NCBI GenBank assembly: GCA_004335835.1 | Contig: RWJK01001453.1 | Location: 24,333 to 88,332, forward strand | From: Scenedesmus sp. ARA3 | Lineage: Eukaryota > Chlorophyta > Chlorophyceae > Sphaeropleales > Scenedesmaceae | DNA length: 64,000 nucleotides | Direction of reading: 5' to 3' | Made by a program: the position numbers and the translations under genes | The notes under the pieces: generated by a model | Databases searched by the model: none | The model's input: only the letters and a program-made list of their open reading frames with translations | Told to the model about the DNA's origin: nothing | Shown: positions 1 to 64,000 of the stretch, piece after piece | How positions within the stretch are numbered: position 1 is the stretch's first letter | Layout of the letters: every line of letters starts with the position of its first letter

Positions 1-2930
1 GTGCTTGTTCAGCTTGAACGACACGTTGCGCTTGGCGGGACGGTGGTGGCCCGACCTGCCGCTTGATGCAGCTGCAAAGCCTGTCGGCGGTGACACAGTG
101 CTGTCGCCGCGTGCTGAGGGGCCTGCAGAAGCACTGCCAGCACCACCTGCTGCTGCTGCTGCTGCATCGCTAGGAACACCTGTTGAGCCCTGCCTTGCCA
201 TGCCGAGGGCGCTGCGTGCCTTCATTGCCATGTTTGGCTGCTCATCAGGCGCCTGCGCTGCTTGCTGCTGCTGCTGCTCAGCAGCTGCAGCGTCGGCGGC
301 AGCCGCATGCTCCTGCTGCCCAGCCGGCAGCGACCTCGCAGAGCCAGCCGAGTAGCTGGAGATGTTGCTCGGGTGCTTCAGCAGCGTGCCAGGCGCACCC
401 GCTGCTGCTGCCGCTGCGCCATGCCCGGCCGGCCTGCCAGGCAGCTCTGCCTGCAAGCTGCCTGCTGGCGACAGCGAGCCATACTGCTGTGCGCTGCTGG
501 TGCCGCGCAGCTGCTGCTGCGTCGGCAGCTGCATGCTGGCTGGCAGCTGCGCTGACTGTGCACGCGCAAAGCCTTGGCCGCCAGATCCGGGCAGCGCAGC
601 GCTGAACGAGCTTTGCAAGGGCTCGAGGTTTGCCTGCGCCATCATATACTCCTGCTGCTGCTGCTGCTGCGGGTGCCAGGCGCCAGCCTGCTGCTGAGCC
701 AGCAGCATCTGCTGCTGCAGCGCCTCGAAGCGCGCCCGCAGGTCGGCTTCATCCTCGGCACTGCTCACATTGTACTCGCACGCTGCAGCCGCCGCTGCTG
801 CTGCTGCTGCCATGGGGTGTGTCGGGCCGTATGATGCATCCCAGGAGTCCCTCCGCCGCCGCCCGCGCGGCTGCCCAGGCTGCCAGCCTTGCTGCCTGGC
901 GTAACCTGGCAGCTGCTGCTGCAGGCTCAGCATGATGTCCTCCTCGCTGAACGCTGCATCTGGGCCAAACTGCTGCCGCAGCTGCCGCACATGGCCCGAG
1001 AGCTCCGCAGCACTCATCGTGCTCGCGCCACGGCCCTGCGGGAAGCGCCGCATCTGCTGCTGCTGCTGCTGCTGCTGCGAGTTCATCCAGCCCTGCTCGG
1101 CCCGCAGCCGCGCAATCACCTCCTCAGATTCGGCCTGCGCGATCTGCTGGTACATCAAGTCTGCTGCCGCTGCTGCCGCCGCCTCCTCCTCTTCCTCATT
1201 AATCGTGCCATCCTGGCCCGGCCAGCCGGTTCCCCAGGGCATCTCAGGCAAGCTGTGCTGCATGTACTGCGCGGCCCGCAGCTGCTGGTCAAGCGCCGGC
1301 ACGCTGTGCAGCATCCTGTTGCTGCCCTGGCCTGCTTTCTGCGCTGCGCCCTGCGGTTGCGCCAGCTGGCTCGCCTGCAGCGCGCGCAGCTCCGCTGAAT
1401 TCAGCGCCAGCTGCTGCAACGCGCCGGATGATAGCTCCTGCACTGACGCCAGGCCCAGAGCATCGCCAGCAGCACCTTGCTGGCCCTGGCCTAGGAAGCT
1501 GTAGTGCCGCGCCGGCGGCCGCCGCTGCTGTCCGTCCGCGCGGCTCCCCGCTGCTGCGCCGCGCGCGATCTGCTGGCCCAGCTCCTCGCCGTGGCTGCCA
1601 GTCCTGCCGGGCGGCGCTGCTGCTGCTGCGGATGCGCTGCCGCTGCCGCTGAACGCCCCGGCCGCGATTGCGCTACGTGCAGCCTGCCAGCCGCCGCCTG
1701 CCACATCCTTGTCATCAGCTTTGCTCAGCCTGCTGAGCTGCCAGCCGTGCTCGCGCAGGAACTGCCGCAGCTGATCAATATCACCCACACCAGCCTGGTG
1801 GAGCTTCGCCAGCTTATCATCCTCCTCTGCCATTGCAACAGCCTCCAGCTCTGCTGCCACATCCTCCGCAACAGCCTGCCGCCCAAGCATGCCGCTAACG
1901 CTGCCCGAGCTATCCCTATCCCTCATCGCCGCCCCGCGCGCCGCAGCAGGCGCTGCTGCTGCCGCCGGCGGTTCCGGCACGACTGGCGGCGCCAGCACCA
2001 CCCCGACAGACTCGTCTGCCGCTGCTGCTGCTACTGCTGCTGCGTCTGAGTTTGCCGTCACGAGCGTATCCCTCGCGCCATCATGCGAGCCGAGAGAGGT
2101 CCTGCGAGTAAGCTCATGCAGCACCTTGGTGTATGCTCGCTGGCCCGCATCAGCATCATCCACGCCTGTAGCCGCAAGCGGCGCCGTCTGGCCAAACTGC
2201 CGCCCCAGCTCCCATTCCGAGGGGTCTGCCGGCGCTGCTGCATCGCCAGACGCCATGCTGCTGTCTGCGCGCGCAAGCTGCTGCCCGTTGCTGTCATCCT
2301 GCGCGGCCGCAGCTGCTGCCGGCGCTGCATGCGGCTGCAGCACAACCTCCTCTGCATCCTCCTTCACAGGAGCTACAGGGCTTGCATCCATGCTCATGTA
2401 GCCGCCATACGCGCTGCCAGCTGCTGCGGCGCCGCCAGCAGCAGCAGCAAAGTTGTTGATCTTTGACGCGATGCTGATGTTGGCAGGCTGGCTCAAGCTG
2501 CGGTGCGACGGCGATGCCGCGCCAGAGGCTGCTGCCGCAGCGCCGCCTGCAAATGCTGCAGCAGTAACCTCCACTGCTGCGCCAGCGCTGCTCAAGCCGC
2601 CTGCTGTAACCGCCTGGCCGTCAGCATCGTCAGCAGCAAGCTCAGTGCGGTCTGTCACTGGCACAGTGACGTCGCGCGCCTGCTGCTGCTGCTCCTCCGG
2701 CTGCTGCACCGCAACAGTGCCGAATGACGGCATCTCTGCCGTAGACCCGGTCTTGTCTGCTGCTGGAGCCGCTGCTGCTGCTGCTGGCGCCGCCGGCGCA
2801 GCTGCCTGCCTGCTCTCCACGCCCTGCAGCCTGCTGCTGCTGGCTTCGTGCAGCGCGCCTGACATGCGCATGCCGAGGCTCATGCTGCTTGCTGTGGATG
2901 TGCGTGGATTGGTGGCCTGCTTGAGCAGCG
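1..2930 (-). other. Low-complexity Gln/Ala-rich C-terminal tail of the NLR-like protein
   Basis: After the last TPR the reading frame stays open on the minus strand to the window edge (about 970 codons). It is built of Ala, Gln, Ser and Gly with short charged islands such as FSEEDIMLSLQQQL, SAEDEADLRARFEALQQQ and, near the edge, KRNVSFKLNKH. The frame was followed by hand in many places without meeting a stop, and the island composition (acidic, Arg-rich) supports real translation rather than chance. No known domain was recognised. Such tails are often disordered; a condensate or interaction role is speculation. Confidence 0.65.
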
Positions 2931-3050
2931 TGTGTGTGCGCTGCGTGGCTGGGTGGCTGCTGCCCAGCTGCCCGATGAATATCTGCACAGCTAGGGATAG
3001 CAGCGGCTCTGCCTCGTGGTGCTTGTCCTGCATCAGCAGCACCTCGGACA

Positions 3051-3086
<36 letters not shown>

Positions 3087-6000
3087 GGGCGGTGACCGCT
3101 TGTTAGCAGCAGGCTGGGCAGGATGTGGTAGAACACGGCATGCTTGAACATCCTAATAGGTAGGGCCATGCGATTAGATCCACTATTGCTCAAGCAACAC
3201 CACATTCTCTCATGCAACGCGTGAGAGACATCACGCATCTCTCCACGCACCTGTAAGGCTGTGCGCTAGGTCTGGGTGCTCGTTGTGCAGCACCTTCTGC
3301 CTGATGGACAGCGCCGCCTGGCCTGCCGCCAGCGCCTCCTCAACCTTGCCCATGTCCAGGTAGATCAGCGCCTGCAGCAGCAGCAGTAGCAACAGTAGGA
3401 ACAGCGTCAGCAGCAGCAGCAGCAGCAGCACCGTGTCAACATACGCTGCTGCGGCAGCTGTGCGGCTGCTACTCAACAGGGCATCGCTTGCCAAAGAAAC
3501 TCCTCGAACACTCGCACGCGTGGCACCCTTTGACAGAAAAACTGAACACCTTAGAACCAAATCATCCAAACATCGCAATACAATCGCACTACCCCAGCCA
3601 GCCTCTTCCTCACCTGCAGGTGCAGCGCTGCCGCCATCTGCAGGCCCTGCGGCTGCGAGGCCCTCAGCGCCTGGCAGCGCTGCGCCACCTCCAGCGCTGG
3701 CTCTAGCTGCTGCCGCATGCGCAGGATGTGGCCCAGCGTCTGCAGCGAGATGGCCACGATGGGGTGGCTGGCGCCCAGGTCCTGCGGCGACAGAATGCAA
3801 CAAGCACGGCATGCAGCAGCACGCGTCAGGCTAGTGTGGCATGCGCAGGATGTGGCCCAGCGTCTGCAGTGAGATGGCAACGATGCGGTGGCTGGCACCC
3901 AGGTCCTGCGGCCACAAGGCGCAGCAACAAGCCATCATGTTTAATGCAGCACAGGCGAAGCCCCCTAATCAGCGAAGTGTTTCAATGCCCATGTGCTCCT
4001 GTAGTGTTCATTGCTGCTCGAGCGCCGCCAGCACAGGCACAGCACCTTTAGAGCAGCGGACGGCTGGCATGTGGCCAATTGGTCAATAAATCATTGCATA
4101 GTGGCCTATTGGTCAACAGCCATCGCTGCATCATCGCCGCCACAACAAGCATCTTAAAGACAGCAGCCACAAGCCACACTGCCGCACCTTCTCGCGCATG
4201 GCCAGGCCCTCGCGTGCTGCTGCCTCAGCATCTGGCAGCCGCCCCATCTCACGCAGCACCTCCCCCAGGCAGTTGTGGCAGCTGGCCACAAAGCTGTTGC
4301 GCTCCGCAGCAGGCCCAGACATGTGCCGCGCTGCTTCCAGGCAATCCGTCGCAAGCTTCTCCGCCTCGTTTGCACGGCCTAATAGCACGAGCGCTAGGGC
4401 CTGCATGGTTGTCGCCACGATAACGGGCTTGCTGCTGGCGGGCTGGTTGAGCTGCTGGTACACCCACACGGCGCGGCTGCAGTGCGACTCTACCTCAGCA
4501 TACCTGCGCAGCAGCAGCAGCGCCAAGGACAAGAGCAGCGGGCAGCGGCTGAGTGCACTGCTATTGTGCACAGTATGTGCCGAATAACTGCGCCAAAAAC
4601 AAGAGCAGCGGGCAGCAGCTAAGTGCACTTCTGCCATGCACAGTGTGTGCCGAACAACTGCGGCAGGAACGTGCGGCTGTGCCGAGCGGCAGCGCGCGCG
4701 GTCCTTGCACAGCATCTGCTGCCATTCAGTCTTCGACTGCCGTTCTCCTGTGTCGTTGCACCGCTCACACGCATCTACATTTGCCAACACTTGATACATA
4801 TACTACATATACTCACTTGCCCAGGTCCAGCATGACGTCCGCCACCACTTGCATCGAGGCAGCAGTGTCTGGGTGCAGCTCCCCGAGGCTCTTCTTCTTG
4901 ACCGCCATGCAGCGCTGCGCCAGCGGCAGCGCATGTGCGGCCTTGCCCGCGCCGCGCAGCAGCGAAACTAGCGAAGTGAGGCAGTTGAAGGTGTCCGGGT
5001 GGTGCAGGCCGGACACAGACTGGTACACCTGCGGGCGGAAGCAGTGAATGAGGAGCCGCCGCAGCAGACAGCAGACGATGGTGGATGACTCAGCAACTCA
5101 GCAATGGACGGCTGGAGAGACTGACAGGAGGCAAAACACAAGCAACTGCAGATGCACACAACATCCCATGTCATGCATGCATTCTTTGCGGCCCACAATC
5201 ACGCCACCGTGCCAAAACACAGCTGAGCGGACTCAACATAACACGCCACCAGCCACCAGCAGCACACACCTGCAGCGCCTTGCGGTACGTCTGCTCCGCC
5301 GCCGCCTGCTTGCCCTGCTGCGCGGCCAGCTGCCCCAGCATCATCAGCTGCGCAGCCACGCGCGGGTGCTCGCTGCCCAGCTGGCCCTGCAGCAGCGCCA
5401 GCACCTCCTGCGCCAGGCTCTGCGCCTCGTCCAGCCGGCCTGCCTGGCGCACCACCTGCACAGAATGCACAAAATCAAACAACAAACATTCCTTGTGAGC
5501 ACGAACTGAGAATGCACAAAAGGTTGTATACAGTTTTCAGCATGCGGCTTCTACAACTGCAGACTTTGCGCCTCGTCCAGCCTGCCGCCTGGCGCACCAC
5601 CTGCACAACAAACCGTACACATTCACTGTGAGCATGAGCTGACCTGATGATGCACAACAGACTGCACAGGTTTTGCACAGTTTTTTTTGCACAGGTTTTG
5701 CACATAAATACATTCATTGTGAGCGTGAACTGGTTGAGCATGCACAGCAACGTGTATACATTTTGACCACGGATTGATGTCCAGCCTCCAACAGTCCAGC
5801 CGCCGCGCCTGGCGCGCCACCTACACAACAGGTACACAATTATCACGACCCACATATAACATGAGCATGTTGATCACACAGCCGCACGCTATGTGCAATC
5901 ACGGTTGTCAGTCAAGCCATAATTGACTTGCCTGAGTGTAACTGGCAGAGGCACCTGCTACAAGCAACTGGCGCAATTGAAGCCATGCGTGCCTATTACG

Positions 6001-14280: not shown

Positions 14281-14472
14281 CTGAGTCGGTGAAGGCGACC
14301 ACCAAGCACATCAGCAGGTCTCCTCATCACACGTCTAGACACGCACCTGCTCTTTCGACGCGCAATGATGCGCTGTTGACCTTTTTCCCCTGAGCAAAGC
14401 TCGGCTGATCAGCTGCTGCTGCTGCTGCACCATCGGGCCCTTTGCTCAGGCAGGCTCCCATGGCTGCTTTAC

Positions 14473-34745: not shown

Positions 34746-37700
34746 ATGACAGCAGTTGAGGCACCAGCAGCACCTGTGGAGGCCAAAGCCAGCGCCGCAG
34801 GGAGAACAAAGCACAAGAACAACCATCAGCGCCCGCAGGAGCAGGAGAAGCGGCAGCAAGAGCACCAGGAAGCTAAGCAGCAGCATGCACATCCTGCAGA
34901 CTCCGTCTTCAGTCAAGCTGCAGAGGACGATGAGGCGAGGACTGCAGAACAGCGTCCTGCAAGCAAGCCGGCCGCAGGAAAGAAACACAAGCAGCACAAG
35001 CAGAAGCAGGACAAGCAGCAGCAGCTGCACCAGAAGCAGGAAAAGCCACGCAAGGGCAGGAAGCGGCGAGTGTTTGGCGTTACGCTGCTGGTGTTTGCTG
35101 TGGTGGCAGTGACCCTTGGGTTTGGGGTCCCAAAGGCTGCGCAGGTGAGGCTGTTGACTTGTGACTTTGGCACCTACTGAAGCACAAGGCAGCTGCTTGG
35201 TTCAGCAGCAGTTGGCAGCCGGGATGCCGCCGTATCTCTTAGTAGAATGCAGCCGGACAGCAGGTGAACCGTGCGCATGCTAGCGTGCGTCCTGCAAGCA
35301 AAGTTGATTGGCAGCCCAGCAGCGAAGTACTTCCTGCAGTGCCGCTGTACACAGTACACACGGTGGTCTGCCGGTGATGGTGCGCCTGGAGTCTGACATG
35401 CATGCTTGTTGTGTGCTTGGGCTGGGGTTGAGTACGACGCTTTCCACCTCTCACCAGCTGTGCATGCACACACAGCAACATGCCCTGTTGTTTAGCTGCA
35501 TGCTTGCGGTGTAAATTGCGTGCTCTGACGCATGCCTGCCCAATGTTACGCTGCTGCTCCTGCAGGATGAGCGGGTACGTGCGGCAGTCAACGACAGCGT
35601 CTCGCGGCTTAACACCACACTGGTAGGTCTGCTGAGCAGGCTTCTTATTTGCTAACAAGGCTTGCCCGCTACAAGCAGCGGCATGCAGTGTAGCAGCAGC
35701 CTTCTGCGCTGGCTCCACTCTGCGTGCTGCGTTCCACAGCAGTGCCAGCTGCTAGGTTACATGCAACAGGCTTCGACCAGCAGCAGCAGCAGCAGCAGCA
35801 GCCACCCAAAGAGCAGGCTCCCCGCTGGCTGGCGTCCTGACTAGGGAATTGAAACTTGTTAGAGTGCAGGGCTGAACGTAACAGGACACCGCACGAGCCC
35901 GACTGGATAGCAGCCGTCAATCGTTGACGTATCTGGTGACTGATGTCCTTGCAGAGTGATGACAGCAGTGTTGAGTGCAATGATATGCTCATCGCCTGTG
36001 CCTTGCAGGTGGAGCAGTTTGACGTGAGCCTGGACGGCTTTCTTGAAAAGTTGGCCAACCTGAGTGACACAGTCAGCAGCATCATTGGGGACGACGGCCC
36101 GCGGCCGGGGCAGATGGCAGCGAAGCAGGGCCTCAAGGCACACCACCCTGTTGTTATTGTGCCAGGTGTGTGTCAGTCTCTGCAACGCATAGATTCAAAC
36201 AGGCTGCCACTCGCAGACTGATGCTGCGGTTTGCTTGGATGTTGCTGTTTGCCTCACATGGTTGCTTGGCGTGACCAGCAAGGGTGTGCATGCACAGCAC
36301 CATTGCAGGCAGCCAGCCACCAGCCCGCAGGTAACAGGTAAGGGGAGAAACCTAGAGACACCGAGAGTCAGGGCCCGACACAACCAATGTGAGTGATCAA
36401 GACCCTGGTTATCCATCCTGCGTGCTGTCCTTGATCTGCTGCTACTGTACCGCAGGCTTTGTCACCTCTGGGCTGGAGCTGTGGCAGGGCGAGGAGAGCG
36501 CATGCATGACGCAGTTTCAGCCCCATCAGGCCCCATCATGGCAACCTGCTGCTGCTGCTGTGCTGCAGGCTTTGTCACTGGAAGAACGCAGGGATGCATG
36601 AGGCAGAAACCCTGAAACCATGCTGCGCACATAACCCATTTCCTGCTGTGCCGCAGGCTTTGTCACCTCTGGGCTGGAGCTGTGGCAGGGCGAGGAGTGT
36701 GCGCAGAGCTACTTCCGTCAGCGGCTGTGGGGCACGCTGAGCATGGCGCAGACGCTGCTGGCGGACCGCGGCTGCTGGATGCGGCACATGAAGCTGGACC
36801 CAGTCACAGGTGGGCACAGGTGTCTGAAACGCGCACGTGGCGCATGATCATTTGTCATTTGTCAAATTTGCCGTCCATGCTGGCTAGTAGCGGCTGCTGG
36901 ATGCGGCACATGAAGCTGGACCCAGTCACAGGTGGGCACAGGTGTCTGAAACGCGCACGTGGCGCATGATCATTTGTCATTTGTCAAATTTGCCGTCCAT
37001 GCTGGCTAGTAGCGGCTGCTGGATGCGGCACATGAAGCTGGACCCAGTCACAGGTGGGCACAGGTGTCTGAAATGCACACGTGGCGCATGATCACACGTT
37101 GCATGATGTGCTGTCCATGCTGGCTTGTAGCGGCTGCTGGATGCGGCACATGAAGCTGTACCCGGTCACAGGTGGGCACATACTGTGGTTGAATGCACAC
37201 ATGCCTCAGGCTTTTGGTTTCTGGATGTATTGCGTGTGGGAGGGCAGGTGCTTAATGTGCTGCTGGCGGACCGCGGCTGCTGGATGCGGCACATGAAGCT
37301 GGACCCAGTCACAGGTGTGGTGATCACCACAGCACAGCACAGCACATACATGATGCATTGTTGGTTACTTTAGTTGATTGTTGGCGGTTCATAATAAAAA
37401 AATTGCAAGATGCAGCACTGCAGGATACATGCACGGCACACCAGCTGTGTCTTCTTTGCATCCAAGCACACTGGCTGTATGGCTGCTTCCTTGCCTCAGG
37501 TTCTGACCCCCCTGGCATCAAGCTGCGCGCCGCCAAGGCGCTGGAGGCGGTGGACTACTTTGTGCCGGGCTACTGGGTGTTCAGCAAGCTGGTGCAGTCG
37601 CTGGCTGACATCGGCTACGACAACAACAATCTGGTGGGTTGGGGGGGGCTGATGGTGATGCAACACAGCATCTTTTGAAGAAGTTGTTTGAGAAGATTTT

Positions 37701-39875
37701 GATCATACAGTGCCACAGTGTGTTTGAACTTTGTCGGTTACATGCATGGCTGCCGGTGCAATCCCGCCTTGCGGTTCCCTTCCGTCATCATGCAGCAGCA
37801 GCCGCGCCAGGTTGACGACAGCTTGACAGTTTGATTTTATTGATGAAAAATACATAAAAACATCGACGTTAATTGATAAAGTTGTTGGTGCAAAGGCCCT
37901 GGTCAGCCATTGCTTGTGGCTGTGCTCAGGGCAGCAGCCAGAGGCATGTCGCTGAAGCACGTTTCTCTGTGATCACTGTGCATGCTGCGTCTCCATCAAG
38001 TGTGCAGGTCGCAGTGCCGTACGACCGGCGCCTGCCCATCCCCATGATGTGCGTGCAACCATCTGCGATGCTAAAGTCTGACCTCAGCCGTCACAAACAT
38101 GTGTATCTGGTGCTGATGCTGCGCTTCCTGCATGTGTGCAGGTGGCTGTGCCGTACGACTGGCGCCTGCCCATCCCCGTGATGTGCGTGCAAACATCTAC
38201 AATCCCTAGCGCTGACCACAATAACTACACATTTTGTTATGGTGCTGATGCTGCGTCTCCTGCATCTGTGCAGGTGGCTGTGCCGTACGACTGGCGCCTG
38301 CCCATCCCAGTTGTGTGCGTGCAAACATCTGCGATCCCTGATGCTGACTTCAACAGTCTTCAACATCTGTATCTGGTGCTGATGCTGCACCTTCTGCCTT
38401 GTGCAGGTGGCTGTGCCGTACGACTGGCGCCTGCCCATCCCTGTGATGTGTGTGCACATCTGCAATCCCTAATGGTGACTTCAACAGTTTCCAACAATTG
38501 TATGTGATGCTGGTGCTGCACCTTCTGCCTTGTGCAGGTTGCTGTGCCGTACGACTGGCGCCTGCCCATCCCCGTGATGTGCGTGCAAACACCTGTGACT
38601 CCTAACGCTGCCTTCAGTGGTCACAAATATGTTGTATGATGCTGGTGCTGCACCTTCTGCCTGCACGCAGGTGGCTGTGCCGTACGACTGGCGCCTGCCC
38701 ATCCCCGTGATGCAAACACGCGACGGCTACTTCACGCGCCTCAAAACCGAAGTCGAGATGCAACTGCAGCAGCAGCGCATCAAGCCGGTGCTCGTGTCGC
38801 ACTCGTACGGCGCACTGGTCACGATGGCATTCATGAATTGGGTGGAGGGACAGCAGCCAGGCTGGGTGGACAAGCATCTGCACGGCTATTTGAATCTAGC
38901 AGGGCCGCTGCTGGGCTTACCAAAAGCTGTGTCGCCGCTGCTGTCTGGTGAGCAGAGCTGCTGCTTGTGCATGCATGCATACCTGGCTCACATACTATGT
39001 GCCACAGTGTTTTGTATGCGCAAGTGATGTATGTGGCAACCATCCCAAACAGGCATGCATGTTGATCAACCTCACTCCAAACGCTCCCACCTGTTCACCA
39101 CCCCTGCTCATCTTGAGCCTGTCAGTTGCGTTGCGTCATCTCATCTGACACCTGCCGCACCCCTGCAGGCGAGACGCGTGAGACTGTGGACATGATGGCA
39201 GGCCTGGCTGTGCTGGTGGAGCAGTACCTGGGCAAGCAGAGCAGGGCAGCGGTGAGCGTCTGTGTGTTATGTTAGGTTGAAAGACAGGCAGTACATCTTG
39301 TATACTGTTGCGAGACTGCTGTGCAGTGATCGGCAGGGTTGGCAGATGGACAAGGGTGTGTGCACTTCCAAGACCGTTCCTCAGTATGCTATGGGGATTG
39401 CTGCTGTCAATTTCTCTGTGCCGGCAGTGGCTTACTAGCTTGCTTGCTGCTGCTGCTGCTGCTGCCCGCCGCCAGATGTTCCGCACGTGGGGCTCAGTGC
39501 TGGCGATGCTGCCTGTGGGTGGCCCACAGGTGTGGGGCAACGCCACGCATGCGCCAGATGACGATGAGAAGGTCACTGCGGCTGGCAGGTCGTACGGGTG
39601 AGCTGAGCTGTGCAGCAAGTGGCAGTTAAAGCTGCATGCAGAAGAGGTGATGGGTTTTTGCATTTGCACAGCGCGTGGAGCTGCTGAAATGCACCGTGTT
39701 GTGCTGCTGACAGTACTGTGCTTGCAACTTCTGAGCGCCTTGAGTTTGGCCATCCGTTGGGCTACTGTCTTGCGCTGCTGCTCTGTGCGTGCCGCCGCCA
39801 CTGACTAGTCAGTACTGCTGTATCTTAGTTCAGGTTCATTGTGAACATGCAACGTCAAATATGCTAAGGTTGCTG

Positions 39876-40716: not shown

Positions 40717-43604
40717 AGCCTGTGCGCTTCCTGGACGTGCACAGCGCGCTGCTCTCCCTGGCAGCCACAGCAGGCCAGCAGCTCACCACCAACATGCAGC
40801 GCTGGGCCCCTGCAGCACACCAGCTAGACCTCACACAGGTGCTAGCCCACCACCGCAAGACAGCGCTGCAGCACGCAGCGCAGCAGCAGAAGGCCAGCTG
40901 TGCTGTGGATCCGGATCAGCCCGGGGACTACCAAGGGACCTGCAAGTGTGCTGACTCAGGATCAGGGGCGGACTGTAGCGCGTGCGACAGCAGCAGCAGC
41001 AGCAGCAGCAGCGGCAGCTGCAAGGGTGAGGTGGATGTGTCAAGTGAGAAGATGCGGAAGATGGAGCAGCTGGCAGGGGTTGAAAGCAGTACTGCTAGTG
41101 GCGGTGAGGAGACGCATGACACGGAAGGCAGCACAGGTGGCAAGGATGAGGTGGGTGGGTTGCTTGGTGTATGTAGGTTCATGGCTAGCTTGTGTGCGTG
41201 GAGAACTTCTCCTTGAAGAAGAGGGGAAGGGGGAGTTCTGCATGTAGTTCTACAAGTTTCGTTTGCCACACATGCAGGGAGAGAGATGCTTCATCTGTAC
41301 CGGGATCGTCTTTCAGGTAGCTGCGCATGTGCCTCTCCGCTTCCAGACACACTGTTCCTTGTGCTCTTACCTCGCCGCAGGTGCTGCCCATCAACCCGGT
41401 GAAGCCGCCGCTGCCGCATGCCCCCCCATTTCAAGCTGTACTGCATGTATGGCGTGGGCACACCCATCACTCACCCCGCTGAAACTACCCCCACTGCCAC
41501 CAGAACTTCTATCCCGCAGTTCGCCTTCACTGCTGACTGACATGCAATTGATCCCTGCATCGTGCTGCCTCCTGTCACAACCTTCTTAACCCTTTCTTGG
41601 CTGTACTGCATGTTTGTGGGCGTCTTTACAGAGTTGACGGGCAACACCTGCGGTGGCAGAGAGATATGGCACATCTCCCTGACACAGCAGGTGTTGCCCA
41701 TCAACCGCCTCTCTCTTTATCAACCGTGTCAAGATGCCGCTGCCGCACGGCCCTCACTTCAAGCTGTACTGCATGTAGGGCGTGGGCACGCCCACCACTC
41801 ACACCGCTGAAACTACTTCCACCGCCTTCAATTGTCGATGCAGCGCGCACCCCACTGCTGACTGACATGCAGTCAATCCCTGCATCGTGCTGCATCCAAC
41901 CACGTCCTTCTCTGCAAACCTTTCTGGGCACGTCTCCCTGCTGCCACAGGTGCTGCCCATCAACCCTGTCAAGACGCCGCTGCCACACGCACCTCACTTC
42001 AAGCTGTACTGCATGTATGGCGTGGGCACGCCCACAGAGCGCGGCTACCACTACCTGAAGAGCCGCAGGGGCGGCGCCACTGAGTGGAGCATCAATGGCA
42101 TGGTCAATGACCCCGCGTCGGGCCTGGTGAGCTTCCGAAGCTTCCAAAGGTGTTTGCCTAAGCTCCATCATCTGCATCGTGCACAACAGCAGCGGCAGCG
42201 ACGCTTGCGCCAAGTGTGGTTGCGAATTTCAAAGGTGGCTTGTTTGCCATGATCACAGACAGCTGCCGCCGCAACTTCGGCCGCTGAATGTGCTGCATTG
42301 CTACAGTTTACTCCATCGGCGTCTGCTCACCGCCTTTGGTCCCACGCAGCCTGCTTACCTCTGCTGACAACCCAGTGTGCTGCACGTGGCATGTCTTTTT
42401 ATATGCACGCGTTCCTTTCACCCTGCTTGCAGGAGTCTGGCGCACAGCTGATCAATCTCAAGCACCTATTTCCAGTAATGTACAAGTATACCAGTAATGT
42501 ACAAGTATACCAGTAATGTACAAGTATACCAGTAATGTACAAGTATGAACACTCGTTTGCGCCTGCCACCCTGCAGGAGTCTGGCGTGCAGCTGTCTCCT
42601 GATGGCGACGGCACGGTGCCGCTGCTGTCTCTGGGCGCGTTGTGTGCCGGCGGCTGGCGCACACGGAGGCTCAACCCAGCAGGGCTGCAGGTGGTGCTGC
42701 GGGAGTACCCTAATAAGCCGGGACCAGTGCTGAAAGACACGCGGTGAGTGCAGTTGAAGCATTTTCTTGGTGAATTATTATGCGGTTGGGCTGCATTGTG
42801 GTTGCAGCTGCAGGTGGTGCTGCAGGAGTACCCAAACAAGCCGGGGCTGGTGCTGAAGGACACACGGTGAAACTCGGATATTTGATGCATTGGCTGGCTT
42901 GATCATCATGAGGTTGGGTGGTATGTGTTGCGGGGGATGTATTGCATTGTGGTTGTCAGCTGCAGGTGGTGTTGCGGGAGTACTCAAATAAGCCGGGGCC
43001 AGTGCTGAAGGACACGCGGTGAGGCACAGATGTTTTAGGCATTGGCTTGCCTGATCAACGTGCGGTTGGGTTGTTTGTGTTGCAATGTGGTGGGCAGCTG
43101 CACGTGGTGCTGCGAGTACCCGAACCAGGCGGGGCCGGGGCTGAAGGACACGCGGTGAGGCACGATTGTTTCCTGCACTGGCGCGGTTGATAAACATGAG
43201 GCTGGGTTGTTGTGTTGCGGAATGTATTTGCACTTGTGTCAGGCACAGGTTGTGAAAGCAGTGCACACCAGCAGGTGGGAGATGAGTGTGGCTGCGGCAG
43301 CAGGGCAGTGCTTGTGTTGGCTGCTGTTGCTCTGTATGGCTGTCGGCGTGTGTGTGCCGTACTGCTGGTTGGTATGCTGTGCACAAAAGTGAAACTAAGC
43401 TGTGCCGCTGACTCTCCACCTGCCTTGTTGTTGTGCTGTTGCAGGGGCGGCCCGGGTGCCTCAACGCATGTGGAGATCCTTGGTAATGATGGCATGCTGA
43501 ACGACCTGCTGCGCATCGTGTCGGGCAACGGCGAAGGCATGGCCGACTCCACCACCACCACCATCCACAGCATTGCTGCAAGGATACCCTGGGATGAGCT
43601 GTGA
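34746..43604 (+). CDS. PDAT1: Phospholipid:diacylglycerol acyltransferase (LCAT family)
   Basis: Thirteen exons join in phase to 924 residues: 34746-35144, 35566-35622, 36009-36165, 36657-36809, 37500-37633, 38671-38947, 39169-39251, 39476-39597, 39932-40388, 40719-41150, 41950-42126, 42577-42743 and 43445-43604. PDAT moves an acyl chain from phospholipid to diacylglycerol, making triacylglycerol at the ER. Visible: a basic, Gln/Lys-rich cytosolic N-terminus, one membrane anchor (about residues 108-128), HHPVVIVPGFVTSGLELW, the lid-region Cys and Trp, the nucleophile Ser345 in VLVSHSYGA, Asp825/827 in PDGDGTVPLLS, and His880 in ASTHVEILGN. The triad is complete. Residues of exons 9-10 form a roughly 296-residue acidic, Ser/Gly/Gln-rich insert inside the enzyme fold. 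At least seven exon edges have intronic echoes. Confidence 0.95.
36454..36582 (+). repeat. Two echoes of the 5' edge of PDAT exon 4
   Basis: A full copy of the acceptor and the GFVTSGLELWQGEE-coding edge is at 36454-36500 and a short one at about 36565-36582, upstream of the real edge at 36657. Confidence 0.85.
36830..37319 (+). repeat. Four tandem echoes of the 3' edge and donor of PDAT exon 4
   Basis: The exon end coding GCWMRHMKLDPVTG plus its GTGGGC donor recurs at about 36888-36945, 37010-37068, 37128-37175 and 37265-37319. The first two intervals are near-identical 122-bp units including intron sequence, so this expansion looks recent. Confidence 0.92.
38004..38585 (+). repeat. Five tandem echoes of the 5' edge of PDAT exon 6, about 131-bp period
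   Basis: Copies of the acceptor plus the VAVPYDWRLPIPVM-coding edge begin near 38006, 38137, 38267, 38401 and 38533; the real exon starts at 38671. Each echo is followed by GTGCGTGC or a close variant, a possible donor, so each could act as a 44-bp micro-exon. Confidence 0.93.
39878..39911 (+). repeat. CTG run before PDAT exon 9
   Basis: CTG microsatellite just upstream of the exon-9 acceptor (39931|39932). Confidence 0.85.
40665..40717 (+). repeat. CTG run forming the acceptor tract of PDAT exon 10
   Basis: About seventeen CTG units run directly into the CTGCAG acceptor of the exon starting at 40719. Confidence 0.9.
41386..41800 (+). repeat. Echoes of the 5' edge of PDAT exon 11, one with a stop
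   Basis: A long copy of the VLPINPVK-to-YGVGTP coding edge is at 41386-41465. A second, with an internal insertion and an in-frame TAG, is at 41690-41800. A fragment lies near 41602-41625. The real exon starts at 41950. Confidence 0.85.
42472..42545 (+). repeat. 19-bp minisatellite, about four copies
   Basis: Unit CCAGTAATGTACAAGTATA repeated about four times with almost no divergence, inside the intron before PDAT exon 12. Confidence 0.95.
42808..43158 (+). repeat. Three echoes of the 3' edge and donor of PDAT exon 12
   Basis: The exon end coding LQVVLREYPNKPGPVLKDTR plus its GTGA donor recurs at about 42808-42871, 42960-43023 and 43097-43158. The real edge is at 42743. The last copy has lost several codons. 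Confidence 0.9.
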
Positions 43605-49600: not shown

Positions 49601-52600
49601 CTGGAGAATAGTTTGTATAAGCTGTCGCACCACCGCTGTGTGTTACTGTGTCCGCTACCCTGCGCCAGCGGCAATGCCGAGCATGTGCTGCGCTGAAGGC
49701 GCTTCCTAGCAGTCGTGCCAGGAAGCTCCTCCAGCGCAGCACATCCTCGGCATTGCCGCTGGCGCAGGGTAGCGGGCAGCGCTGGCAGTGCGAGCAGTTT
49801 GCTGCATGCCACAGCTGTCGCAGTGCTCGACTGCAGTGGCTGGTCATGGAACACTGTTCCCAACTGAGTTTGCTTGCATTCTGCCTGCAGGAGAGGACCC
49901 TGTGCGCCACTGCTACAATAGCATGCACTATCTGCCTCAAGTGCCAGCTGCTAGTTGCACAACTGTCGCCAACTCGACGTGCTTGTGTTCTTTGGCCTGC
50001 AGGAGATGGACCCTGTGCGCCACTGCTACAATAGCATGCACTATCTGCCTCAAGTGCCAGCTGCTAGTTGCACAACTGTCGCCAACTCGACGTGCTTGTG
50101 TTGTTTGGCCTGCAGGAGATGGACCCTGTGCGCCACTGCTACGACTTCATGCATTACATCTGCCTCAAGTGCCAGCTAGGGCAGTACCAGCCGCCCAGCA
50201 GGGGCCGCAACAAAAAGGGCAAGGGCCGCAGCAACGCAGCAGGCCTGCAGCAGCAGCCCCTGCCCACGCCGTCTGCTGCCGCTGCGGCAGCAGCAGCCTC
50301 GGCAGCAGCAGCGCGCGCGGCAGCGGCAGCGGCGGCTGCGGCAGCAGTGCAAGGCGGCGCGGGGCCGGGTTCAGGGTTCCAGCTTGCAGGACTGCTGGAT
50401 ATGTTGGGTGAAGCAGCAGGGCCAGGGGCAGGCCTAGGAGTGCAGCAGCCGATCGGCAGCAGCGGCCGGCTCACGCCTGGCCTTGGTGTGCCGTATCCGC
50501 TGCTGCAGAGCCCTTGGCTGCTGCAGGATCCAGCAGCAGCAGCGGCAGCAGCAGCTGGCGGGCTGCTGGGAGATAGCCTGCAGCAGCAGCAGCTGCAGCT
50601 GCAGCAGTTCCAGCACTTGCAGCAGCTGCAGGCGGATGGTATGCTGGAGCCTGGTATGGACCCGGCCTTTGCAGCGGCTGCTGCAGCAGCAGCAGCGGCA
50701 GCGGCAACAGCAGCAGGTGGCAGCGAAGGGCAGGGCCTGCCAGTGCAGGCCTTGCCGCCAGCGCTGCGAGTGGGATCACTGGCAGCAGCAGCAGCGGCTG
50801 CTGCTGCAGCTGCCGCCGCCGCAGCTGGGGGTAAGGGCAGCTCGGCAGCTGAGGATGCTGCCGCAGCGGCAGCAGCAGCAGCAGCGCTAGGGGAGCAGCA
50901 GCAGCTCGGCGCTGCTGGGATGGCAGCAGGTGACGGCTTGCAATCAGGGGAGCCGAGCTTTTCTGAGATCGCTGCCGGGCTGGCAGCAGCAGCAGCGCTT
51001 GCAAACGGCCGCGTGACTCCTCCCTTCCCTGGAGGCCTGCACGGCGCCGACTTTGCAGCAGCTGGCAATGCAGCTGCAGCAGCAGCAGCAGTGTCAGTAG
51101 GCATGGGCGATGCTGACATGTATAGCCGCTGGGGTGCTGCAGGCGCAGCAGCAGCGGCTGCAGCAGCTGCTGCTGCTGCTGCTGCCAATGGTTTGATGCC
51201 GGGTGCCGGCAGGCCTGCTTCCGCAGGGGCAGCAGGCAGGACTAGCCCAAGCTTGCTCAGCAGCAGATTAGGGCTTGATCTGAGCCAAGGACTCCAGCAG
51301 CAGCAGCAGCAGCATGGTGGGGAGCAGGATGCAGCAGCAGCAGCAGCAGCAAATGGTCCTTCCAGCGGCAGCCGGGGAGGCAACGGCATGGTAGAGATTG
51401 ATCCGGTGCTGCTGCTGTATCTGCAGGGCTCTCTGCAGGTGAAGAAGCGGCAGCGAGCAGCAGCAGCGCCCCGGCGCGGCAAGGATGCCGCAAACTGGGG
51501 CAGTGGCTTTGTTGAGTGGCTCGAGCAGCAGCAGCAAGTGAAGCAAGAAGATGCAGAGCAGGCAGCAGCAGATGCAGCTGATGCAATGGATGTTGACGCG
51601 AAGGCAGATGCTGACGCAGCAGCAGCAGCTGGCACTATGCTGGGGCTTGGCCAAGGTCGGCACCACCCAGCAGCAGTACTGCCGGGCCACCCTAAGTGGG
51701 CAGCAGCAGACACAGCAGCAGCAGCAGCAGCAGATGCGGAGGCAGCAGAGGGCGTGGCTTCACCAGCAGGAGGTTCCCCTACTGCTCTTGTGATGCGCAC
51801 CGTGGCGCGCAAACACAGTGGAAGGCCTGTGTCAGCACCTGCCGGGACCTCAGCATCTGCAGGTGCTGCAGCTTCTGGCATTGGTAGCGGCTTCAGCAGT
51901 AGGCCATTGTCAGCGCACCTGCCATCCTCCTCGCAGCAGCAGCAGCAGCAGCCGCAGCTAGAGATCCCGGAGCTGTGGGTTGGCGGCTCAGGGCAGCAGA
52001 AGCAGGCCGGCAGCGGGCCAGGCAGCGGCGGCAGCAGGCTGCAGAACACGATGATGCACCGGGTGCTGATGCAGCACCAGCAGGAGCTGCAGGAGCTGCT
52101 GCATGGCGGCGGAAAAGGGGCCGAGGGCGGCGGCGGCAAGGCGGGGCAGCGGCAGCAGCAGCAGCAGCTGCAGCGCGCGCGCTCGGGCGGCAGGCAGCGG
52201 TCGCCGCCGGACGGCGCGGCTGCTGAGGACCCGCACAGGTGGGTGGGAGGGGCGGGGTGTTGCAGCAGCAGCAGCTTGCAGCAGTGGCGATGGCAGCACC
52301 CTTTATGATGCTATGTGTGCAGATTTGTTCAGCAAAGCTTTGCACTCCTCGTGTTGCAGCAGCCGTAGATGGCGTGCTGATGCACGTGCTGACCACTCGA
52401 CCAAAAGATCGCTTGCCTGCTGCAGCGTCCTTGCATGCTGTGTTGCCGCACGTGTCACAGGGCTGTGGCAGGCAGCACATGGTGACCGATGAAGCTGATC
52501 TGCTGCTGCTGCTGCTGCTGCTGCTGTGTCGTCTGTTCCTGCATGTCGCTGATGCTGTGCAGGGCTGTGGCAGGCAGCCCCAGCCCGCTGGTGCAGGCGG

Positions 52601-58443: not shown

Positions 58444-58842
58444 CTATGAAAGTGCTAGCGAGAAAATGCCAAAGTCACCGCATGCATCAAGAGGTGTGAT
58501 ATCATTTCTACCTGTCCAGCATGTGATGTACTTGACCACATTCCTGGTCCAGCCACTGGGCTCAAACAGCGCTGCAGCTGCTGCCGCATCCATGTCCCCA
58601 AGCGCCCTGCCCCACACCTCCAGCCACGCATCACCATTGCCAGCATGCTCCACATGCACATAGAACTCAGCCGTGCCGTCAAACAACGCCACAGGCACAG
58701 CAGACACGCTGCAACGCCCGCCGCCCGCTACCCGCACAGAGAATGCTGCAGGCATGCCGTAGCCAACCGGCGGCGCGTGCGCAGCCGGCTGCATGGAGTA
58801 ATGAAGGATGATCTGCACTCTGCTGTAGTGCGCTGGCATCAC
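58444..58842 (-). CDS. Orphan coding-like exon, unrecognised
   Basis: A minus-strand frame with coding character (GYGMPAAFSVRVAGGGRCSV, then DGTAEFYVHVEHAGNGDAWL and FEPSGWTRNVVKYI) follows a possible acceptor (CCATGCAG near 58790) and runs to a stop at 58444. It could be the last exon of a gene whose other exons were not found, or a relic. The beta-rich pattern suggests a globular domain, but no family was recognised. Confidence 0.4.
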   Translation of the reverse strand: MMPAHYSRVQIILHYSMQPAAHAPPVGYGMPAAFSVRVAGGGRCSVSAVPVALFDGTAEFYVHVEHAGNGDAWLEVWGRALGDMDAAAAAALFEPSGWTRNVVKYITCWTGRNDITPLDACGDFGIFSLALS

Positions 58843-58982
58843 TCAACCTCTGCAAAACCATCATGGTTTGCATGCTGCAACTGTTGTCTAACCAGATCAC
58901 CTTTCACATGAAGCATCGTCCAGACAATTTAACACACTTTCGTACATACAATCTGCAGCAAGCTGGGACACCAACCATCCAT

Positions 58983-59135
58983 TCACCCCTCGCACGAAGC
59001 CTCATCCAGGAACTCCAGCACACTTGTCATGCGGAATAACGGTACACTGTCATTCTCCTCCTCGCTGCCTTCCTCAAGCCACCCCGGAGGAAGCACCACT
59101 TTCTGCGCTGCACCACCGCAAACCTGCCCAACTCC
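58983..59135 (-). repeat. Second copy of the last Dus coding segment including the stop
   Basis: A diverged duplicate of the Dus C-terminus (KVVLPPGWLEEGS, a changed acidic stretch, then FLDEASCEG and stop) lies about 260 bp downstream of the real one (59251-59390). It is an echo of a coding end rather than of a splice edge. Confidence 0.8.
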
Positions 59136-59250
59136 CTTCCGCCTCGCTGTGCAAAACGCCAAGAAGCTCTGTCGTACACTCTGCTGCAGTGCTCTAACAC
59201 TCCCCAAATGCAACCACTCTGCAGCAAGCACTGCAACATTGGCTATTTCT

Positions 59251-62200
59251 TCACCCCTCGCACGAAGCCTCGTCAAGGCACTCCAGCAAACTGTCATCAT
59301 CCTCATCACTGCCCTCCTCCAGCCATCCAGGCGGCAGCACAACTTTCTGTGCAGCACCACCACGCACTAACCCTGCCCCTTTCAGCCTCGCTACACGCAG
59401 CGCCTGCACAGGGTAGGGCTCAGAGGGGTCAAAGCCGCAGGCTTCTGGGTCTGCTGCTGCTGCGTGCCAGTCGGCCAGGGATGTTGCGGCAAAGAGGCGG
59501 CGCTGCAGCTGCCGGGCCGAGGAGAAGCCTGCCAGGTAGCAGGGGATGAGCTTGCGCATCTTCAGCGCAGCACCGCTGGCGGTGTTGAGTTGGATGTAAA
59601 GCCACCAGCAGCAGCAGCAGCAGCAGCAGCAGTAGCAGCAAGTTAGCCACTACTGCAATGAAGCAACCTGGCAGGGTGGTGGCGTTCCCGAAACAGCTCC
59701 ATCAGGCGTGGTGACCACAAGCCAAGCATGCGCAGCAAGCCACGCACCAACAGGCAGCCACCACAGCCGCGCCACCACCACCACCACCGCAGCATCGCTG
59801 TACATCCACGACTGCAGAGCACAGCTCATACAGACACTTACATATACACTATGACCACACATCACCACACCAGCAAGAGCTATGAATGCGAGGTTCCAGC
59901 GCCACTCACAGCTCATCTTGCTCCCAATCCGCCCATGCAGTGACATGCTGCAGCGCCATGCGCAGCACATGCCCAAGGTTTGGCGGCGGCCCGCCCGGCC
60001 ACTGGCCAGCCAGCATGGCAGCTGCCTCCTCAAACAGCCATGGACGGCCCAGCGCAGCGCGTCCTATCATGACACCTGCACGCACGGGTTTGAGCACAGC
60101 AGATTGTCAACAGTTTGGCGGCAGTTAGTTGGCAGGAGGATGAACTGTGGGCGGGTTGTTGCAAGCATGGCTACAGTTGCACTTGCGGAAGGGCCGGAAC
60201 TGCCCTGCCTGATGTGACTGTAGGCATGCTGTGTTACTCATAGGCATGCTGTGTTACTCAACTGCTTGTACATGTTGTTTTGTCACCAGGGAGAGGACAG
60301 AATCCTTCTGGCTCGTCACCACCGCCACAGTTGAGCGAGCCCAATTATGGTGGACGGCAATTGTACATCCCCTCACCATGGCAGCCTGTCTGCCGCATCA
60401 GCTGCACAGCATCCGCTGCTTCGAACACGTCGCCATTGCCAATTACGGGAAGCCCAGGCACCGCTTGCACCAGCTGCTGTACTGCCTCCCAGTGGGCTGG
60501 GGGACTGTACTGCTGATCAGCAGTACGGGCATGCAGTACAAGGCCTGCTGCCCCTGCATCCGCTGCAGCAACGCCCGCCTGCATGTGGGGTGCAGCTGGC
60601 AGCAACAGGCGTCAGCTGGACGCATGCCCTGCACGCTGTGTTTGCTGTGCCGCGGTATGTGCAGCAGCACATGCAGGCACCAAGGAGCTGTAACAGGCAG
60701 CAGCTGCTGTTCCCACAGCCAGCACCTGGCCTTCTGGCATGCTACGCTGCGGCAGCCGTGTAGCTGCAAACCGTCTGCCCCGCACATGCCGCGAGGACAC
60801 TGGCGCTGAAACACATAATCAACATCATAAGGTGCATGCTTAACTCTCACCTGCAGAAATGTAATCAGCCCCACCCTCCGCTTCACTGTGACTTGCACCT
60901 TCCACATGCAGATGCCAGGGACTTGGACAGGCAGCAGCTGCTGTTCCAATAGCCAGGTTCAGCAACTGGACAGTCCAAACAGTCGTTTCAAAGAGTCACA
61001 CTTAGCCTGCACATGCTGACAGGGCCACAAACACATCATAACACATATGAAGTAGTGTCCAAGCCCCACCTGCAGGAATGTAATCAGCTCCGGCCCCAGC
61101 CCCATCCTCAGCTTCACTGTGACTGGCACCTCAGGCCCCGCGGCAGCAGCAGCAGCAGCCACCAGCCGCCGGAACAGCCTGGGGCGCAGCGGCAGCGCAC
61201 TGCCGCCGCCTTTTGCTGTTACTTTGCGCACGGGGCAGACGAAGTTGAGGTCTATATGGTGCACACCACACTCTTGGACAAGGTGCCTGCGTGTGCACGA
61301 GCGAGATATTCAAGGTTAAATGTAGGTTCAATGAACTGATGTGGCACATAAAGGCTGTGGTGTATTATGTTACTGCTGCTGCTAGGACCAGCATCTGGTC
61401 GATATGGTGCACGCCGAACGTCTGCATCAGATGCCTGCGCGTGGGCAAGCCAGATACAACAGTGGATGTGGTGGTTGCTGTGCACCTTCCAGGCTGATCC
61501 TCTTCGCTCCCAGGCGAATGCTTCGCTCCCTATCCTTACCCCAAGCTGCTGCTGTAAGCTGCGCGAGGGCAAGCTGATCTTGTTGGGTGGACCACGTAGG
61601 TTGGTTCATATGCATTGCTGAACACACGTTGTCCAGCAACTCTGCTACAACCTTTCACAGGCCTGAAACCATGCGAGTACCACCATGGATATGATGCAGC
61701 AGTTGCCGCTACAGCTTACTTGACAGCCCAGACCAGCGTCTGCGGCCGAACCCCGTACAGCTGCACACTGCGCACGCTGTAGATCATGATAAAGCAAGTA
61801 GAGACATGATGCCCCCCACCCAAAGCGCTGCACGCGCTCACTTCACGGCCCAGTCCAGCGTCTGCGGCCGAACCCCGTACAGCTGTACACTGCGGATGCC
61901 CTCCTGCGGGTGCCAGCTGGCCAGGTGCCTGCTGGCGGCGTTGCCGGCCTGCAGCGTGGCTGCAATCACCATCTCACTCACAGCCATGGACGCGCCAGCC
62001 TGCACAGGGTCAATTGCAAACTTTCATGAATCGTACATGATAATGAAAACATGATGCTGAGGTGTGCTGTGATGTGGTTGCAGTGCACAAGAAAGCGGAT
62101 GCATCTGCAGCTGCGCTGCACGTTGACTGCGTGCCCTGCATCAAGGTGTGCTGTACATGTGTCCAGAGCAGTCACTAGATGTAGCTGTGCGCTGCGCCAC

Positions 62201-62366: not shown

Positions 62367-62430
62367 ACGCAGTCCAGGACATGACACAGTTATGGCTAGT
62401 GGACTGGTCCTGCTGCTGCTGCTGCTGACG

Positions 62431-62433
<3 letters not shown>

Positions 62434-62481
<48 letters not shown>
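62434..62481. repeat. CTG microsatellite upstream of the Dus start
   Basis: About sixteen CTG units (CAG on the gene strand), in the 5' leader or an unrecognised first exon of the Dus gene, where they would read as poly-Ser. Confidence 0.9.
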
Positions 62482-62482
<1 letters not shown>

Positions 62483-62509
62483 GGCAACGATGCTGGCGCA
62501 CTGCTGCAC

Positions 62510-64000
62510 ACTACACGTGTCGGTACATCCAGGCCCTTGCGCATGCCTGCAGAAGAAGGGGTTGGTGTGGTTGCTGTGCTGTGATGCTGCTGTCGTGGTT
62601 CACATCCACAGCTGAAAAGAGCACCCAAATAGATTCTGCACAAAACAAACTAAGAGCAGTTCAAGCAGTAGCGTCGTCGGCTGCTGCAGCATGCTGGCCT
62701 GCTGGCTGTTCACCTGCAGCTCCAAAGTGCGTCCCAGCCTAAGAGGCTGCACCTCTCCAGCAGCAGCAGGCGCTACATGCGTGTTCTGCTGTGACACTAG
62801 GTATCCTGCAGGTGGCTGCTTGTGATGGCATGGCAGCAGCAGCTGCTGCTGTGGCTGCTGCTGCTGCTGCTTTGTGCAAGCAGCCTGATGCTGACCAATC
62901 AGCCTGGTGGCTGCAGCCATGGCTGATGACTACGCTAAGTCAAGCCAGCTCGCACGCATCGCAGAATCAAACTCGATGTGACGTGCTTGACAAAATAAAC
63001 GGGAAACTTTGCATGTGGTGTGGGATGGCTGATGCTTTGAAGCAGCAGTAAGGTGGCAGCAACAGCTGTAGCAGCATGTTCGTGCTCGTCCTGCTGTAGC
63101 AGTTCCATAATCCAAGCAATCATCCCCCACATCATGCCATGAGCGTATTTATGTCGCACACAGCATGACACAGCTGGTGTGGCGAACCACAAGGTGTATC
63201 TGGGGAACAACAGCACCTCGCTGCCGTGCGCATTCGTGACGCTTGATGGTTATTCACCTTATCGGTTGTTCATATTCATTTCTTTCAAGTACTGCTTAGG
63301 CTTGCACTACTGTTTCGTAGGATCCGGTGTCGGAGACCACACACAATGCTTGCAAGCAGAACATGCCGTTTGAACACAACACGTAGCACCGCTAGTAAGT
63401 AATTCCTTCAAGCTCCAGGCGCAGTGGGACACCGTCGGCTCACTAGTGCTGATCACTACTGGTGGTTGGCAGGTGCAGGTGCCAGGGCAATTTGCCCGCT
63501 CAGGAGCCCAGCACTGCAGCAACGACGATGTGTAGCAGCTAGGGGACTTGGAAAAGATGGTGAGAGCTCGCTTGGCACGATCAGCATATGGCAGCAGCAG
63601 TGACAGCTCAGCAGTTGATGGCATGCAGCTTGCACCATCAGCGGTGCTGACAGACATTGATCTAAAGGACATGCAGCAGCATGTCTTCCCTCTTGATGAG
63701 TTTGTGCCGTCAACATAAGCAGTTGTACAGCACAGCTGCTGCACCGACTTGTTTCCCAACTCAGCTCCAATGGTTTCGCGCGCAGCAGCAGCTGCTGCCT
63801 CATCATGATAAACACTCCTGCTGCCGCTGCAGCTGCTGCACATGCTGCCGCGTCGCTGTCACCTTGCCCCAACATGCTTGTATGCTGCGGCAGCCGTTGA
63901 GGGCAGGCTGGACCTGGCAGGGCTGGTGGCGTCACACTAGCAGCTGCTGTCTCACAGGTTGTGTTGTAAAAACAACTGCTGCTGCTGCTGCTGCTGCTGC
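62510..64000. other. Right-edge stretch without an assigned gene
   Basis: Holds the upstream region of the Dus gene. On the minus strand between 63,450 and 63,930 short frames look weakly coding (for example DEAAAAAARETIGAELGNK near 63,770) and could be an exon of a gene continuing past the edge. The window ends in a GCT run (63,976-64,000). Confidence 0.4.

Follow-up and report, generated by a model that had tools for sequence, protein, structure and literature searches.

Why do introns of a green alga hold, over and over, copies of the edges of their own neighboring exons? The question is raised by a stretch of 64,000 nucleotides from Scenedesmus sp. ARA3 (assembly GCA_004335835.1, contig RWJK01001453.1, positions 24,333 to 88,332 of the forward strand), the whole of which we call the window. 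A sequence-only reading of the window had described, in almost every gene, intronic copies of the nearby exon edge with its splice site and flanking intron, and had likened them to intron gain by tandem duplication of AG/GT segments. We call these copies echoes and analyzed them in nine gene models from this assembly. We found that echoes are real and local to the edge they copy, and that the exon and its echo differ in the manner of two coding sequences. Tentatively, we propose that echoes arise from repair that is templated by a diverged homolog, fails, and is finished by end joining.

Echoes in the window and in nine gene models

The assembly comprises 87.27 Mb in 1567 contigs, and the window has a GC content of 58%. 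Self-comparison of the window identified 45 close direct-repeat pairs in 24 clusters, many of them about 120 to 135 bp apart, compared with none in two first-order Markov resamplings of the window. The earlier view that local duplications across splice junctions recur far beyond chance is supported. Tandem Repeats Finder reported fewer and more regular arrays than the self-comparison did.

To place repeats on exon edges, we used spliced alignment to model nine genes with 82 introns: PDAT, DHDPS (DapA), Mit_KHE1, and Dus inside the window and five CCT genes (epsilon, theta, eta, alpha, and beta) outside it. The aligner permits only GT or GC to AG introns, and such exon bounds are therefore by construction. 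Proteins of Tetradesmus obliquus (T. obliquus) matched the CCT genes nearly letter for letter (epsilon, 531/531 residues; theta, 538/539; eta, 555/556; alpha, 474/475; and beta, 502/519), as they did DHDPS (343/343 identical) and Dus (435/442), and the source alga is therefore probably T. obliquus or a very close relative. For the PDAT model the reference was a Scenedesmus sp. NREL 46B-D3 protein, with 583/716 residues identical (KHE, 242/303). For epsilon and theta, the reference records were first stripped of a duplicated peptide; the unedited records also align, each with one additional, echo-made exon. Because alignment weakened further on, the KHE model runs to exon 5 of 9 and the PDAT model to exon 11 of 14; the CCT-beta model stops before the last three predicted exons. 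CCT-gamma and CCT-zeta were studied by self-comparison in place of a gene model, and four more PF00118 loci (C1530, C1552, C1260, and C1192) fall outside the gene-region set.

Comparison of each intron with its flanking exons gave 132 echoes with an exon part of at least 20 nt, the threshold for counting, on 28/82 donor edges and 37/82 acceptor edges and in 47/82 introns. A second, slightly different search gave 133 copies, with Dus differing by one. The echoes reported from sequence alone are thus borne out, and in four of the seven genes named there copies could be placed on exon edges. Every modeled gene has at least one echo, but "almost every gene" was too strong a phrase, since 35 of the 82 introns have none counted, CCT-zeta lacks a repeat, and 5 of 12 further stretches described below are without clusters.

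The echoes share a characteristic anatomy. In 118/133 copies the echo reaches the junction exactly, and its inner end lies 28 to 86 nt within the exon (5th to 95th percentile). Spacers between successive copies are 45 to 100 nt long in 106/133 cases, with a median of 75 nt, an interquartile range of 61 to 93 nt, and one value below 45 nt; in the five CCT genes, 85/109 copy-to-copy spacings fall within 95 to 155 bp, with a median of 124 bp. The spacing thus falls in a narrow range without being constant. Spacer length showed no correlation with exon-part length in a comparison that took in at most 70 nt of flank. The statement that copies carry flanking intron holds for about half of them: 67/132 share at least 10 nt of intron with the real edge, but 65/132 share 9 nt or less, which is mostly splice consensus only. 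We refer to copies as "tandem" or "spaced" according to this shared-flank length, so that the dissimilarity of spaced copies past position +9 is partly by construction. Echo sites without a shared flank match the real site about as well as two unrelated real sites match each other, with an excess at +4 and -5. The proposal that echoes supply spare splice sites is also supported, as 56/60 donors and 50/61 acceptors in echoes reach scores in the range of real sites.

When ten arrays were aligned, their spacers often looked related by eye but showed much greater divergence than the exon parts did. In 28/35 arrays the outermost copy has a flank unrelated to the rest, and the flanks of 49/102 inner copies are unrelated too. 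It had also been stated that the outermost copy alone leads into the complete exon, which is correct if "outermost" means the exon-attached copy. At the inner ends of echoes, scored donor sites occur at 8% compared with 8% in controls (61 echoes) and scored acceptor sites at 28% compared with 20% (60 echoes; P = 0.15). Donor-side read-throughs hit a stop codon in 54/60 cases. Divergence showed no clear gradient with distance from the exon, the nearest copy being less diverged in 17 arrays and more diverged in 12, and the five reciprocal-nearest echo pairs were too few to have any power. Telomere heptamers of the plant type (TTTAGGG/CCCTAAA) were also observed: the 42.7 kb of modeled introns (for example, in CCT alpha) contain 17, compared with an expected number of about 1.3, and the 13 kb of exons contain none. 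Such motifs appear in some echo spacers too; in the whole window there is no excess (2 compared with 1.4 expected).

Echoes are specific to their own edges and accompany longer introns

In the five CCT genes, an echo scoring at least 36 was found in the gene's own intron for 23/57 exon tails and 28/57 exon heads. When the same edges were compared with the introns of other genes, the corresponding values were 1/684 and 2/684. Controls were similarly low, with 1/41 and 0/42 for far exon edges and 0/57 and 0/57 for antisense. The modeled genes contain 68 local repeat clusters, of which 63 lie on an exon edge, 4 within introns, and 1 inside an exon. Random placement was possible for 64 of them, and of these 60 are on edges compared with 18.2 expected. 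A simple minisatellite array was rejected as a description of these clusters on the basis of this edge placement and the unrelated outermost flanks.

We searched the whole genome with four exons (CCT alpha, CCT epsilon, DHDPS, and the last Dus exon), a search that gives best candidates only. The matches were the exons themselves and their neighboring echoes, apart from a single 65-nt match (83%) at another CCT-like locus. One 108-nt spacer that was searched is single-copy. On the basis of these four exons and this one spacer, we rejected an introner, another mobile element, or a mobile spacer as the source of the echoes.

Intron length rises with copy number, as 334 nt plus 116 nt per copy (r = 0.80), and an echoed edge is present in 4/29 introns shorter than 350 nt and in 26/26 introns of at least 600 nt. 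In twelve further 9-kb stretches we found 18 clusters in 7 stretches and none in the other 5, with pair distances of 78 to 1046 bp, many of them 90 to 141 bp; these clusters, which lie outside the gene models, are counted as repeats and not as exon-edge echoes. The sample is biased, as the first six stretches come from contigs of 156 to 434 kb and the second six from contigs of 17 to 90 kb. The phenomenon is common but uneven across the genome.

Echo load also varies widely among the CCT genes, from no repeat in 6 kb at the zeta locus (by self-comparison) to 5 copies in eta and 36 in alpha. The five repeat-rich CCT loci are on contigs of 43 to 68 kb, and the repeat-free zeta locus is on a contig of 138 kb. 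Among the further stretches, those from large contigs hold 6 clusters and those from small contigs 12; arrays perhaps break the assembly.

Exon and echo differ like two coding sequences

Across the 132 echoes, mismatches between exon and echo occur at 4.9, 4.5, and 16.4% of first, second, and third codon positions, respectively, and at 4.7, 4.5, and 16.4% when one echo per edge is used. The third position is the most different on both donor and acceptor sides, with and without a shared flank, and in every divergence bin; among individual genes, CCT beta and eta show a weak skew. Codon changes comprise 303 synonymous, 191 replacement, and 4 stop differences, while unconstrained change in the copy alone predicts proportions of 27, 71, and 3%. 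For every 100 substitutions there are 3.7 indels in the exon part and 14.2 in the flank. Of the third-position differences between G/C and A/T, 159 have G or C in the exon and A or T in the echo and 125 are the other way round, with 84% of such exon sites being G or C. These near-balanced differences resemble two coding sequences.

In simulations of neutral echoes with one-way or two-way conversion, run over limited settings, the ratio of third-position to first- and second-position mismatches was at most 2.01, compared with about 3.5 observed. Within those settings, exon-anchored concerted evolution was rejected as the sole cause of the codon pattern. Composition or CpG was likewise rejected as its cause, as mismatch in the intron part is 13.7% for GC, 15.9% for AT, and 19.6% for CpG sites.

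An echo of the Dus stop codon

The last Dus exon has its end, TGA included, repeated 3' of the stop codon (58949..59392, minus strand). Mismatches between the two copies number 1, 2, and 15 by codon position, with 13 synonymous, 4 replacement, and 0 stop differences and large indels. The duplicated exon parts here, like those of the intronic echoes, differ as two coding alleles would. This copy is not translatable as part of Dus, so coding-like divergence need not stem from present function, and it involves no splice junction, so the process need not involve splicing. It is a single case, from a survey in which Dus was the one gene end covered.

Positions of echoes and other repeats in the window

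On the spliced models, 23 echo copies in the window sit on exon edges (12 in PDAT, 7 in DHDPS, 3 in Dus, and 1 in Mit_KHE1), and one further echo is that on the Dus stop codon. With the arrays outside the models added, the window total is plausibly above thirty copies, as had been proposed; this figure is an estimate and not a count.

One array is in intron 5 of PDAT, the gene with the LCAT domain, on the plus strand (38005..38712). Here five acceptor-side copies of the exon head with its acceptor (38005-38049, 38139-38183, 38271-38311, 38404-38448, and 38535-38579) precede the real edge at 38668-38712, which belongs to the exon at 38671-38947. In intron 4 (36754..37317, plus strand), four donor-side copies of the exon tail and donor are found at 36890-36934, 37012-37056, 37130-37174, and 37259-37317; the last is identical over 59 bp to the exon edge at 36754-36812 and has only 3 nt of intron in common with it. 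Also on the plus strand, PDAT intron 3 has one acceptor-side copy (36453-36496) of the edge at 36654-36697, and intron 10 has two (41378-41466 and 41719-41795) of the edge at 41947-42034. Just 3' of the last PDAT exon kept, at 42472-42546, a 19-bp unit is repeated in tandem 3.9 times with 100% matches, a repeat unlike the echoes in kind.

The DHDPS gene is on the minus strand. Its intron 4 contains donor-side copies at 32497-32553, 32365-32427, and 32243-32305 of the edge at 32611-32673, and acceptor-side copies are present in intron 3 (32878-32920 and 33097-33122, of the edge at 32787-32829) and intron 5 (31514-31565 and 31649-31696, of the edge at 31395-31442). Donor-side copies on the same strand occur in Mit_KHE1 intron 3 (25307-25357, of the edge at 25574-25624), in Dus intron 3 (61718-61772, of the edge at 61840-61894), and in Dus intron 4 (60848-60900, of the edge at 61067-61131). 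In Dus intron 1, also on the minus strand, a weak similarity at 62442-62480 has its source at 62833-62871, within the exon and about 119 nt from the junction, and so is no proper edge echo.

Repeats are present as well in the TPR/NLR-like and dehydratase (PTPLA) regions, where exon edges fall outside the gene models. Clusters in and beyond the TPR-match region are at 3715-3916, 4520-4665, 5414-5607, 6914-7197, 7895-8078, 9366-9544, and 9618-10242, with no strand assigned. Two more arrays outside the models have about three copies at a spacing of 123 to 152 bp (42684..43238) and 2.6 copies with a period of 113 (49853..50177). The MYB-like gene has its HTH domain at 46.66 kb, and the nearest arrays, at 49.85 to 52.90 kb, may or may not belong to it. 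Coding strands in the window are not separable by GC content at third codon positions or by long open reading frames, and the Pfam scan covered the window except for plus frames 2 and 3 of positions 1 to 15000 and the third plus frame of 58 to 64 kb.

How echoes may arise

We infer that the template in the proposed repair process is a diverged homolog of the broken gene. A double-strand break would occur within an exon near its edge, and the broken end would invade a diverged homologous gene copy, where coding sequence still pairs well. Repair synthesis would then run through the remainder of the exon and its splice site and copy about 45 to 100 nt of the homolog's intron. Because the intron is mismatched, the extended end could not anneal to the other broken end and would be end-joined instead. 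The result would be an intact exon edge and a short intron spacer, both copied from the homolog, together with the old edge, now displaced but keeping its own splice site, as the echo. Such a product would be viable because the displaced edge is within an intron or behind a stop codon. The attached and displaced edges would be alleles that both remained coding as they diverged, each with a genuine splice site. Noncoding sequence from diverged homologs would prime repair poorly, and echoes would for that reason be confined to exon edges. Later exchange between copies and tandem duplication of whole units would build the arrays.

Several observations weigh against this proposal. When changes were polarized at edges with several echoes, the single-echo changes were 52, 53, and 110 by codon position, which is less extreme than the pairwise pattern, and comprised 101 synonymous, 109 replacement, and 5 stop changes. 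Raw GT dinucleotides just past the inner end of acceptor-side echoes number 5, 7, 9, and 8 at offsets 1 to 4, compared with about 3, and raw AG at the inner end of donor-side echoes numbers 13, compared with 4 to 6. The nearest-copy distance is uneven modulo 3 (20, 33, and 11). Of 17 arrays that have three or more echoes, 6 show four-gamete violations, a sign that copies have exchanged sequence or that mutation has recurred. Spacer length has a sharp lower limit near 50 nt, on the donor side too, without obvious reason. In a few copies the exon part shows 100% identity but the flank is unrelated, which would require recurrent events or later conversion, and intron homology is lost in the half with an unrelated flank though third positions differ by only 17%. 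Finally, no second allele of the four searched exons is among the best candidates in the assembly; as a haploid assembly is not expected to hold a second allele, these searches left our estimate for the repair reading unchanged.

Among other explanations, ordinary tandem duplication across junctions by slippage or unequal exchange, followed by neutral decay and conversion by the exon, would place the edge restriction in selection, with copies lethal in exons and decaying unseen in introns. We consider it unlikely, but it has real points in its favor: about half of the copies have at least 10 nt of intron flank in common with the real edge, several arrays contain spacers that look related when aligned, and the four-gamete violations are in line with it. 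What it does not reproduce is the codon-position ratio, in the settings simulated, or the scarcity of intron-only clusters (4/68) when a flank with about 15% mismatch is detectable, and the frequently unrelated flanks, above all of outermost copies, also speak against it. That echoes are functional, as decoy or alternative splice sites or alternative exon ends under selection, seems improbable. Their strong splice sites, their protein-level conservation, and the raw GT and AG excess at inner ends would fit such a role, as would three T. obliquus records (P0001, P0064, and P0212) with echo-derived peptides that the aligner places on echoes; against these stand the lack of excess in scored inner-end sites, distances that are not multiples of three, the stop codons met in most donor-side read-throughs, and the Dus echo behind a stop codon. 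A cassette mini-exon, a ratchet exon, and a recursive-splicing ratchet were each rejected because scored inner-end sites show no significant excess, despite the strong splice sites of echoes and the modest raw GT and AG excess, which had made these readings attractive.

Copying coupled to splicing, whether through recursive splicing intermediates or through reverse splicing, reverse transcription, and insertion, would account for the copies that end exactly on the junction and for sites that fit the consensus while differing at free positions. We think this very improbable, given that scored inner-end sites are not in significant excess, that about half of the copies carry intron flank, and that the Dus stop-codon echo, a single case, has no splice site at all. 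Intron gain by duplication of AG/GT exon segments (the Rogers model), the origin suggested by the sequence-only reading, agrees with duplications that span exon edges and with a single potato case in which an intron-exon structure is duplicated (PMC4974935). However, it expects a copy of the upstream exon at the acceptor and of the downstream exon at the donor, which we found within 5 nt in 0/67 and 0/66 cases, and echo number tracks the length of introns that already exist; this origin can hardly be upheld. We give almost no credence to an assembly artifact, which the fragmentation of the assembly might suggest, since copies differ among themselves and echo-derived peptides recur in T. obliquus records that are independent, among them P0212 from a contig of 4.4 Mb. 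The insert of P0001 is one residue off the echo at 8266 of locus L043 and two off the echo at 8374-8418 that the aligner chose.

Relation to known systems and meaning for intron growth

The closest parallel to repair from a diverged homolog is in helq-1 mutants of Caenorhabditis elegans, in which extended ends that fail to anneal are reported to be joined by polymerase theta, giving tandem duplications (PMC8654963). There, as proposed here, a segment copied in repair synthesis during failed synthesis-dependent strand annealing is then end-joined, with sizes from about 100 bp; in the account given there, however, the template is the sister homologue and the median size about 1 kb, whereas echoes crowd at exon edges and differ like diverged coding alleles. 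Repair-mediated duplications in vertebrates, ascribed to synthesis-dependent strand annealing (PMC2671141), are likewise short and local and can include exons and splice sites. In contrast, the 824 proximal human cases have an average separation of 1.2 kb, the part of that report cited here gives no exon-edge rule, and for the two duplicated exons tested there Ka/Ks was not different from 1.

The potato RdRp case (PMC4974935) resembles echoes as a tandem duplication involving an intron-exon boundary, but the geometry expected of a newborn intron was not found in the algal echoes. Tandem repeats near intron-exon junctions of Chlamydomonas and Volvox (PMC3887541) are also concentrated at intron ends in green algae; the abundant intron motifs described there are dinucleotides, unlike the exon-derived units of about 124 bp seen here. 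Introners (PMC9860276) similarly affect introns genome-wide, but they are copies of an element inserted into many genes, whereas the one echo spacer searched is single-copy. Among titles and abstract openings of the open-access literature matching the terms used, we found no description of exon-edge echo arrays.

For annotation, echoes call for caution, as the duplications in the three T. obliquus database proteins P0001, P0064, and P0212 are of echo-derived peptide. Two records under one locus name, P0130 without and P0212 with the insert, may represent real alternative splicing.

In a published table, the mean intron of T. obliquus is 462 bp, compared with 230 to 302 bp in four other green algae (PMC5966456). 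In a species with so long a published mean intron, echoes offer a concrete process, one open to dating, that may make introns longer. It is possible, though we are less than confident, that each echo is the fossil of a displaced allele, that homologs are so diverged that mainly coding sequence primes repair, and that introns grow by recording exchanges between diverged lineages, readable from one haploid genome. If the repair model is true, homolog-templated repair and the alleles that it displaced could be recorded, in readable form, at very many places in one genome.

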